Below, piece after piece: positions 49,696-52,219 of a DNA stretch of 64,000 bases. Numbering within the stretch: position 1 is the first letter of the stretch; every line of letters starts with the position of its first letter. A program made the translations under genes and the position numbers. This DNA comes from Halobaculum limi (GTDB lineage: Archaea > Halobacteriota > Halobacteria > Halobacteriales > Haloferacaceae). Where the stretch lies: assembly GCF_029490015.1 (NCBI RefSeq), contig NZ_CP120468.1, forward strand, positions 682,001 through 746,000. The letters run 5' to 3'. Under the pieces are notes generated by a model. It had not been told where the DNA came from. It saw nothing but the letters and a program-made list of their open reading frames with translations, and did no database searches.

Positions 49696-50832
49696 ATGAG
49701 TGAGACACGCGACCGGCGGGAGTTCTGCCCGCGCTGTGGCGACCCGGTTCCAGAGCGGGAGGAACCGCTCCCTGGCGAGCCACGTGAACGCGACCGCGTG
49801 CTCTGTGACGCCTGTTACTTCGAGGACTTCGAGTTGGTCGACGCGCCCGACCGCGTCGAGGTGACCGTCTGTTCACATTGTGGCGCGGTCCACCGCGGCA
49901 ACCGCTGGGTCGACGTCGGCGCGCGCGACTACACCGACGTCGCCGTCGACGAGGTGTCGGAGGAACTCGCGGTCCACCTCAAGGCCGAACAGGTCCAGTG
50001 GGGCGTCGACCCCGAACAGGTCGACCAGAACACGATCCGAATGCACTGCACGTTCGCGGGCGTCGTCCGCGGCATCCACGTCGAAGAGGAGGTTGTCGTG
50101 CCCGTCAAGATCAGTCGCGGGACCTGCGACCGCTGTGGCCGCATCTCCGGCGGGAGTTACGCTGCAGAGGTCCAGATCCGCGGCGTCGACCGCGTTCCCG
50201 ACTCCACAGAGCAGTCGAAGGCCGTCGAAATCGCCGAGTCGCTCGTGGCCGAACGCGAGGCCGACGGCGACCGCGAGTCGTTCGTCACCGAGGTCATCGA
50301 CCAACCCGAGGGCAAGGACGTGAAACTCTCGACGAACAAACTCGGGAAGGCAGTCGCCACACAGATCACCGAAGAACTCGGCGGTTCCTACTCCGAGGCA
50401 CCGACGCTCGTCACCGAGGACGGCGACGGCAACGAGGTGTACCGCGTCACGTTCGCGGTGCGTCTGCCGAAGTTCCGGCCAGGCGACATCATCGACCCTG
50501 CGGACGACGAGGGGCCGGTGCTGGTGCGGTCGGTTCGCGGGAACCTGAAAGGTGTCCGGATGGCGACGGGTGAACCGTACGAAGCCCGCTTCGAGGAGGG
50601 TGAGACACCCGACGCCGAGAAGGTGGGCGAGGCCGACGACGCCGTCGAGACGACCGTCGTCACCGTCGAGGACGACAACGCCGTGCAGGTGCTCGACCCT
50701 GAGACGTACGAGGCGGTGACCATCCCGCGGCCGCCAGGCGTCGCCGAGGACGCCGCCACCGTCGACGTGGTGAAGACGGACGTGGGTCTGTACGTGGTGC
50801 CGTCGGAGATGGACGACGAAACAGAAGAGTAA
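49696..50832 (+). CDS. nmd3: NMD3-related ribosome biogenesis protein
   Basis: Archaeal homologue of the eukaryotic 60S export adaptor NMD3, 378 residues. The N-terminal zinc region is complete: CPRCG, CDAC, CSHCG and CDRCG (eight Cys between about residues 11 and 140), followed by SH3-like and OB-like domains. It should bind the large ribosomal subunit during assembly or quality control. It starts at 49696 after a GGAGG site 5 bases upstream (49688). Its stop lies against the mobile element boundary. Confidence 0.9.
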   Translation: MSETRDRREFCPRCGDPVPEREEPLPGEPRERDRVLCDACYFEDFELVDAPDRVEVTVCSHCGAVHRGNRWVDVGARDYTDVAVDEVSEELAVHLKAEQVQWGVDPEQVDQNTIRMHCTFAGVVRGIHVEEEVVVPVKISRGTCDRCGRISGGSYAAEVQIRGVDRVPDSTEQSKAVEIAESLVAEREADGDRESFVTEVIDQPEGKDVKLSTNKLGKAVATQITEELGGSYSEAPTLVTEDGDGNEVYRVTFAVRLPKFRPGDIIDPADDEGPVLVRSVRGNLKGVRMATGEPYEARFEEGETPDAEKVGEADDAVETTVVTVEDDNAVQVLDPETYEAVTIPRPPGVAEDAATVDVVKTDVGLYVVPSEMDDETEE

Positions 50833-50850
50833 GGCTCTGTTGAAAGCCTC
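50833..50850 (+). repeat. Left terminal inverted repeat
   Basis: GGCTCTGTTGAAAGCCTC; matches the reverse complement of 51856-51873 except for one base (G versus T at position 14). Confidence 0.65.
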
Positions 50851-51017
50851 GATCAGTGATAGATTCCAGCGAGCCTGCTGAATACACAGTGCGAGTCGCC
50901 TACTGTTGAGCCACCATTGTCGGTAGCGGCCAGTGGTAGATACAGAGGCTGTATGCAGCAGTTCGGTTAGGAGAACAAGACCGACAAGACCCAGTAGATC
51001 CGAAGAAACCTCTCCGG

Positions 51018-51317
51018 TTACTGGCTGACGAATTCGGGCACGAAGAAGACGGCCACGATCAGACACAGCAGTACGAAGATTCCTGTGAGACGCAGGACAC
51101 CAGCGGCCTGCCGTCTGTTTTTCGGAAGGGATTCAGCGATTCCAGACAAGGCGCTTCCTGCTATCATAAACAGGAGCCAGCTGCCAAGTGTGGCATTCTC
51201 GACGAACATAGCGTATCCGTATATCCCCGAGAAGATCAAGGCCGCACAGAGTTGGATTGCTCCAATCGGCTGACCAGATGGCTCACTGAACACTGTCTTG
51301 TCAATGATGGAGGGCAT
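51018..51317 (-). CDS. Small membrane protein in the mobile element
   Basis: Predicted 99-residue protein starting MPSIIDKTVFSEPSG at 51317 (an ATG at 51398 would give 126 residues). It has three hydrophobic segments (GAIQLCAALIFSGIYGYAM, SWLLFMIAGSALSGI and LTGIFVLLCLIVAVFFV). Its composition is less acidic and its codons less GC-rich than nearby genes, which suggests foreign origin. No family is recognised. Confidence 0.6.
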   Translation of the reverse strand: MPSIIDKTVFSEPSGQPIGAIQLCAALIFSGIYGYAMFVENATLGSWLLFMIAGSALSGIAESLPKNRRQAAGVLRLTGIFVLLCLIVAVFFVPEFVSQ

Positions 51318-51525
51318 CGAACGCCTTGCCTCGCCCGGGAGAGAAAAAGATGCTGAACGCACTATCACCGAGCGGGCAGTACATTGCACAATAAGCAAAC
51401 AGCAGTGATGCGTCTACGATATTCGTAGCACGTATTTTCCGGCGCTTTCCAGACTTGTACCTCTGTAAAACTGCGACCAGCGGAGAACCCGTGTTAGATA
51501 CAGTGAGACGACACACCTTCGATGG

Positions 51526-51534
51526 ATATATTTT
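51526..51534 (+). promoter_or_regulatory. TATA box inside the mobile element
   Basis: ATATATTTT centred about 26 bases before the ATG at 51556, a strong match to the archaeal promoter consensus, supports expression of the small ORF. Confidence 0.5.
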
Positions 51535-51555
51535 TCTCGGAGAAATTGGATTTTT

Positions 51556-51750
51556 ATGGAGCGGAGCAGAGCGCTCACGGTTTATGTCATTGTTCCGTGT
51601 TTTCTATACACTGCCGCCTTCGCAATCGCGTTAATTCGGTTTTCCGATGTTGTTGATACCAGCACTCTGAGACTGTCACACACGATATTCGCAGCGGTTA
51701 TGGCGGTAGTTCTCCTCGTCAAAAGGGACGAACTGTCCGCCGATAATTAA
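51556..51750 (+). CDS. Tiny membrane protein in the mobile element
   Basis: Protein of 64 residues with two membrane helices (LTVYVIVPCFLYTAAFAIALI and LSHTIFAAVMAVVLLV). A canonical TATA box lies 26 bases upstream, so it is probably expressed. The base composition is AT-rich. No family is recognised; it could be a cargo protein of the element. Confidence 0.6.
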   Translation: MERSRALTVYVIVPCFLYTAAFAIALIRFSDVVDTSTLRLSHTIFAAVMAVVLLVKRDELSADN

Positions 51751-51855
51751 GCAGCACATGTCGATCGACTAATTAAGTCATTCATCGATGAAATCAAAAA
51801 CAGTGATTCGCTTGCTACACCCGCTGTATCTGATACGGTGTTCTTATCAGACTTT

Positions 51856-51873
51856 GAGGATTTCAACAGAGCC
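51856..51873 (-). repeat. Right terminal inverted repeat
   Basis: GAGGATTTCAACAGAGCC; inverted copy of 50833-50850 with one mismatch. Confidence 0.65.
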
Positions 51874-51887
51874 AAGAACAAGCATTC

Positions 51888-51993: not shown

Positions 51994-52179
51994 TTAGTCC
52001 GCGTTGACGTGGGAGGGACCGCTCGGGTCAAGCGGCGAGTGCGTCGTGGTGATGCCGCGCTTCTCACAGAGTTCGTCGAACCGGTCGAGGTCGACGCCGG
52101 CCTTCTTGGCCGCCTGTGTTCGGGTGAGCGTTCCGGCAGCGAACAGCGTCAGGGCCGTGTCGACGCCGTGGGTTGTCAT
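51994..52179 (-). CDS. Small helix-turn-helix-like protein
   Basis: Protein of 61 residues starting MTTHGVDTALTLFAAG at 52179. The segment TLTRTQAAKKAGVDLDRFDELCEKRG has the shape of a helix-turn-helix, as in haloarchaeal UPF0175-like small proteins. The upstream region has an AAGGAG site 3 bases before the ATG and a TATA box about 45 bases before it, so it has a short leader. Role unknown; possibly DNA binding. Confidence 0.65.
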   Translation of the reverse strand: MTTHGVDTALTLFAAGTLTRTQAAKKAGVDLDRFDELCEKRGITTTHSPLDPSGPSHVNAD

Positions 52180-52219
52180 ACTCTCCTTATCTGCAAGGGG
52201 ATACATAATCCTTCGTGAG

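Follow-up and report, generated by a model that had tools for sequence, protein, structure and literature searches.

A gene-bearing, transposase-less element of Halobaculum, probably a mobile insertion cassette mobilized by an IS5-family transposase

The segment at positions 50833-51873 of the DNA analysed here (a stretch of 64 kb from a Halobaculum chromosome, referred to below as the window) is a 1041 bp element that carries two small genes and no transposase. We regard it with considerable confidence as a mobile insertion cassette (MIC), the ends of which are recognized in trans by an IS5-family (ISH1/ISH28-like) DDE transposase. This assignment is based on tips held in common with other elements, on 8 bp duplications at many copies and on empty orthologous sites, together with the presence of homologous cassettes at different sites, the recurrence of each cargo gene singly and an end that is shared with autonomous IS. 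The preliminary description of this DNA had proposed a cargo element bounded by inverted repeats and devoid of a transposase; that proposal is upheld, and the ends are those of IS5-family IS in the genus.

Boundaries and genomic context

The left terminal inverted repeat, GGCTCTGTTGAAAGCCTC (50833..50850, + strand), bears a tip that is common to about 70 elements. The inverted arms (50833-50861 and 51845-51873) extend over 29 nucleotides with 79% complementarity, and pairing is complete over the outermost 13 (13/13) and holds for 17/18 of the outer 18, in agreement with the 18-base ends with one mismatch described previously. When the window was searched for the tip with up to two mismatches, the only two matches were the ends of the element, both of which are exact. 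Conserved ends of about 72 bp were recognized by profiles whose training set included them: an A-type end at 50833..50904 (+ strand; 59 bits, E = 4e-16) and a B-type end with the tip GGCTCTGTTGAAATCCTC at 51802..51873 (− strand; 55 bits, E = 1e-14). These are the sole matches to the A and B profiles in the window. The inverted repeat is genuine, and the DNA that it bounds is, as had been noted, richer in AT than its surroundings (GC content of 50% versus 67.5% for the window). No transposase gene or remnant was found inside the element from the list of open reading frames, a Pfam/NCBIfam search or an IS5 transposase search.

The element is flanked by a presumed 8 bp target duplication, with a left copy AAGAGTAA (50825..50832) and a right copy AAGAACAA (51874..51881), neither of which has a strand assigned. 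The two octamers are identical at 6/8 positions, which is weak taken alone. The upstream gene terminates in a TAA codon that sits within the left octamer, and the left copy may therefore be the conserved one and the right copy the diverged one.

The upstream gene (49696..50832, + strand) encodes an NMD3-family protein (PF04981) and is convergent with a UPF0175-like gene downstream (51994..52206, − strand). An orthologue of the NMD3-family gene is found in 10/10 other Halobaculum genomes, where it marks the empty site, and the downstream gene is found in most of them. An empty site in close relatives had been suggested as a check on mobility, and the segment between the two genes is indeed absent from this locus in all ten congeners. 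In two of them (G005 and G003) the flanks are parted only by a short clean spacer, which can be aligned to the joined flanks of the element.

These relatives also bear on the idea that host DNA was trapped between two independent MITEs or solo ends and never transposed as a unit. MITEs of 125 bp with the same tips do occur in several Halobaculum genomes, separate from 50833-51873, and some other cassettes (L078 and L121) contain inner ends. The present element, in contrast, has just two ends, which form a matched A+B pair, and in the relatives that lack the segment the flanks are contiguous and the cargo is absent from the locus. A composite of this kind is therefore very improbable.

The two cargo genes

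Cargo gene 1 (51018..51317, − strand, with its ATG at 51317) encodes a 99-residue protein with about three hydrophobic segments (MPSIIDK...ALSGIAESLPKNRRQAAGVLR...), the start codon of which was fixed from its homologues. Cargo gene 2 (51556..51750, + strand) encodes a 64-residue protein with about two hydrophobic segments. Relatives of the first are present in 90/170 genomes of the family, mostly outside detectable cassettes, and relatives of the second in 14/170, with identities of up to 79%. The dN/dS ratio is 0.32 for cargo gene 1 against a cassette copy from Halorubrum and 0.18-0.29 for cargo gene 2. Both small genes are real and under purifying selection (dN/dS of 0.18-0.32), in line with the two membrane-protein genes that had been called from the sequence. 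A TATA-box-like motif, GGATATATTTTT (51525..51536, + strand), recognized by sequence alone, lies about 25 nucleotides 5' of the ATG of cargo gene 2, a spacing as would be expected for a leaderless haloarchaeal transcript. Neither protein was assigned a family or function by Pfam, NCBIfam or PADLOC.

At six loci (L243, L250, L253, L255, L263 and L275) cargo gene 1 lies alone between A- and B-type ends that are about 607-621 bp apart. The duplication is 8/8 at L263 only; several of the others have one weak end and lack a clear duplication. It also lies inside the C/D cassettes L203, L212 and L103. L212 (706 bp) and the larger L103 (2026 bp) share a match of 571 bp that takes in one end, and the extra gene in L103 makes these a single-gene and a two-gene version. 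Cargo gene 2 is found alone in the C/D cassettes L232 and L233, which are 90% identical over 326 bp and occupy unrelated sites with 8/8 duplications at each; in Haloferax it adjoins an A-type end. The recurrence of both genes singly, in cassettes of both end classes, shows that cargo and ends are modular, and the Halobaculum element is thus a two-gene combination of cargo that elsewhere rides singly on both end systems. Cargo gene 1 is inverted relative to the cassettes of about 620 bp, which suggests that rearrangement was involved in the assembly of the element.

The junction between the cargo genes contains a possible vestigial B-like end (51455..51506, + strand). The match is weak (4.5 bits, a score equalled by 2/200 shuffles), and sequence resembling this stretch is also present in L048 and L049. 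Plain local alignment gave no significant internal ends between the cargo genes (best score of 29, equal to the null maximum of 29).

Two other ideas about the cargo were discarded. Cargo gene 1 is not always cassette-borne, as most of about 57 relatives examined lack detectable ends, and a separate element family defined by the internal motif CCTCTGTRAAACTGCG came to only a few scattered copies with no paired ends. Two further paralogues of cargo gene 1 face each other elsewhere in the same genome (L041:1015-2733; C1:42014-43735), and no cassette ends were detectable around them.

Elements with the same tip

The ends had been proposed for a search of haloarchaeal genomes, in case they should be found nowhere else; they proved to be widely present. 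In the genome of the element itself the tip occurs 17 times with at most one mismatch, compared with 0 for a reversed-pattern control, and exact copies lie outside the element. Within Halobaculum at least 16 tip pairs have target repeats of at least 6/8 and span 125 to 3276 bp, 50833-51873 included. A further 51 elements were found in 119 stretches drawn from a scan of public genomes, in Halorubrum, Haloferax, Natrinema, Natronomonas, Halopenitus and others. Elements with the tip GGCTCTGTTGAAAYCCTC in Halobaculum and in haloarchaea at large number about 70. The catalogue, from which duplicates were removed (n = 70), comprises 11 elements with a full transposase, one with a transposase remnant, 46 of at least 300 bp without a transposase and 12 smaller ones. 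Target duplications are perfect (8/8) in 51/70.

Among the tip pairs of the 119 stretches, 39 are flanked by 8/8 repeats, compared with 0 in a threefold larger control with shifted flanks. This comparison, the empty orthologous sites and the identity of the tip with IS and cassette ends in this and other genomes leave next to no probability for a chance inverted repeat within an ordinary AT-richer chromosomal island, even though the target duplication is imperfect and AT-rich islands are common in haloarchaea.

Methanogens contain small tip-bearing elements as well. Five of these, in relatives of Methanoregula and Methanoculleus (L112, L134, L140, L171 and L206), are 96-258 bp in length with 7/8 to 8/8 repeats, so that the tip occurs outside haloarchaea too.

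End types and autonomous partners

Past the tip, the ends sort into types that are conserved across about 70 bp. Cassettes pair them as A+B (about 18) or C+D (about 20), a typing that is partly circular, since these elements also served to train the profiles; it is supported by loci that were not used in training (L276-L308 and the cargo-gene-1 loci). The end pairs of L094, L108, L120, L121, L126 and L192 are mixed or unclear. Autonomous elements mostly combine a transposase-side end, E, with C, and none of the sampled autonomous IS that could be typed clearly has a B or D end. The A-type consensus is present in 127/167 Haloferacaceae genomes (21/28 genera) and on 84 haloarchaeal plasmids; no cassette ends were found on phages.

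A complete IS5 element bounded by a tip pair is present in the same genome (C1:1866500-1868016). It has an 8/8 target repeat (AGCGTGCT), a passenger gene for a 141-residue membrane protein and a 273-residue IS5-family transposase (NF033579, E = 3.5e-63; PF01609), the closest named relatives of which are ISH28 (about 45% identity) and ISH1. This is the only intact transposase of the group in the genome and belongs to the C lineage, on an IS with E+C ends; it thus represents a sister system and not the one with A ends. The combination E'+A was found on two autonomous IS, L307 (Halobaculum G001, target repeat 7/8, with other open reading frames inside) and L308, whose transposases are 70-71% identical to the resident 273-residue enzyme. 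No transposase of this A-end lineage was found in the genome of the element. With E'+A on these two and E+C on the others, each cassette class has one end in common with an IS and another that is particular to that class.

The tips of 50833-51873, paired at 17/18, are common to the autonomous IS5 elements L035, L088, L122 and L307. Autonomous copies with passengers are known (L035, L088, L090 and L307), and a 31-residue transposase remnant is kept beside a Pycsar-like gene pair in L195, both of which would fit a decayed transporter IS, that is, an autonomous IS5 element with passengers that lost its transposase in place and never moved without one. Against this, no transposase remnant is present in 50833-51873, its second end is of type B and not the transposase-side E or E', and the A+B pair recurs in about 18 cassettes. 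Transposase-less cassettes with perfect duplications at different sites further indicate that they move as such. We consider decay in place improbable.

Proposed mechanism

In the cassette reading, the transposase most likely mobilizes the entire segment after binding the 18 bp tip and subterminal sequence, and inserts it at an 8 bp stagger, which would leave the 8 bp target duplication. Each cargo gene would be carried along whole, under a promoter of its own. We infer that the 273-residue transposase of an A-ended IS, or its ancestor, moved the present copy, and that material from two single-gene cassettes was joined within one A+B end pair to give the two-gene cassette. Two observations count against the reading: the 6/8 duplication at 50833-51873 and the fact that the A-end transposase was not found in the genome. 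As the resident transposase is of the C lineage only, the copy was probably mobilized at an earlier time, or in another host, or through cross-recognition. The divergence of the target copies and the lack of an A-type IS transposase in the genome suggest that the cassette is now fixed or immobile.

More tentatively, and with somewhat less than even confidence, the data suggest that two IS5-family systems exist side by side, IS(E,C) with cassette(D,C) and IS(E',A) with cassette(B,A), which together would form a general gene-shuffling platform of haloarchaea. In each system the cassettes would retain one end of their IS and have a dedicated second end. Cargo would be swapped between cassettes and systems, and several genes would come together in one cassette; regulators, transporters, toxin-antitoxin pairs and genes for phage defence would in this way spread through the class.

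Comparison with known systems

MICs were first described in Bacillus in 1999 and later for qnr genes (PMC3913671; PMC3129680); examples are MIC231 (Bacillus cereus, IS231/IS4 family), mic-qnrS2 and mic-qnrD, for which target duplications and transposition in trans are described (PMC3913671, PMC3129680). Like 50833-51873, these have two IS inverted repeats and a passenger gene in place of a transposase. The view in the preliminary description that a cargo-bearing non-autonomous type might be undescribed does not hold in the light of these cases, nor for haloarchaea, in which HqIRS32, a short, non-autonomous ISH2-type element, already carries an open reading frame that does not encode a transposase (PMC3119063). 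The set described here differs from the Bacillus and qnr cassettes in its IS5-family ends, 8 bp duplications, archaeal hosts and many unrelated cargoes, and in its asymmetric paired ends of about 70 bp with the cassette-specific second ends B and D. The ISH2 type, likened here by description, is a single family of about 520 bp with one reading frame and was described as a MITE, whereas the present set has dozens of cargoes and reaches 2.7 kb without a transposase.

IS with passenger genes are known as transporter IS or modular IS231 elements (PMC3129680, PMC2266710), and the modular passenger-bearing elements reported in a 2008 survey were confined to the IS231 subgroup of IS4 (PMC2266710). 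L035, L088, L090 and L307 fit the transporter IS; 50833-51873, which lacks a transposase, does not. The transposase of the autonomous partners, although about 45% identical to that of ISH28 (with ISH1, of the IS5 family), forms a distinct lineage. A role in virus exclusion has been proposed for Hlac_3088, a transposon passenger gene of Halorubrum lacusprofundi (PMC10544981). That transposon, likened here by description, encodes its own transposase, unlike 50833-51873.

The element has IS-related inverted repeats, no transposase and passenger genes unrelated to transposition, as MICs do, and the duplication that is 6/8 here is 8/8 in many relatives. With 1041 bp and two conserved genes it is not a MITE, without a transposase it is neither a transporter IS nor an IS5-family IS, and with its cargo flanked by ends of about 70 bp and not by complete IS copies it is not a composite transposon. 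No description of archaeal MICs was found in the literature searched, which was mostly open-access and did not include ISfinder. As far as that literature shows, archaeal MICs at such a scale, with asymmetric, non-random end pairs (A+B and C+D) of about 70 bp, are new.

Gene-bearing cassettes without a transposase have so far been known as isolated bacterial cases. In the present sample cassettes outnumber autonomous IS by about 4:1, and this excess, together with an end type found in so many Haloferacaceae genomes, suggests that they may serve haloarchaea as a major means of gene movement, one that is for the most part unannotated. Because the asymmetric end pairs are conserved, they provide a handle for the automatic discovery of many more cassettes and allow one to ask which genes are carried, by what means cargo is acquired and whether a single transposase acts on many cassettes. 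Cargo examples already in hand include a Pycsar-like gene pair and a PIN toxin with its partner.

Cargo and organization of other cassettes

Cargo in the catalogue was identified with Pfam or PADLOC. It includes histidine kinases (L036 and L089), a VapC-like PIN-domain toxin with a partner gene (L082:2069-2936, H. marinum, target repeats 7/8), a formate/nitrite transporter with a TrkA-C protein (L084), an FMN-dependent dehydrogenase-family protein (L103), an acetyltransferase (L157), an AstE-like protein (L212), an AsnC-type regulator with HalOD1 (L118) and a Pycsar-like cyclase with a PycTM effector (L195); lipoproteins are also found. In L090 a periplasmic binding protein and an FAD oxidoreductase lie beside a transposase.

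The Pycsar-like pair (L195:2243-4173, Halorubrum californiense contig_21), which is flanked by 8/8 repeats, is, as judged from its predicted products, a case of phage defence as cassette cargo. It adjoins the IS5 transposase remnant mentioned above, and illustrates a possible origin of cassettes, with cargo replacing the transposase. The formate/nitrite-transporter cassette occurs with its flanks, 99.9% identical over 2.9 kb, on a plasmid of Halobaculum roseum (L084:340-2781) and on a contig of Halarchaeum rubridurum (L105:3654-6095), which points either to a plasmid common to both hosts or to recent transfer between families. On an H. litoreum plasmid (L080:376-5380) two cassettes lie in tandem with the octamer GAGTCGTT common to both, and the second seems to have inserted into the target repeat of the first. 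In Halorubrum laminariae a single unit with 8/8 repeats (L126:5361-7612) contains two IS5-family transposases that are 41% identical and has two different ends.
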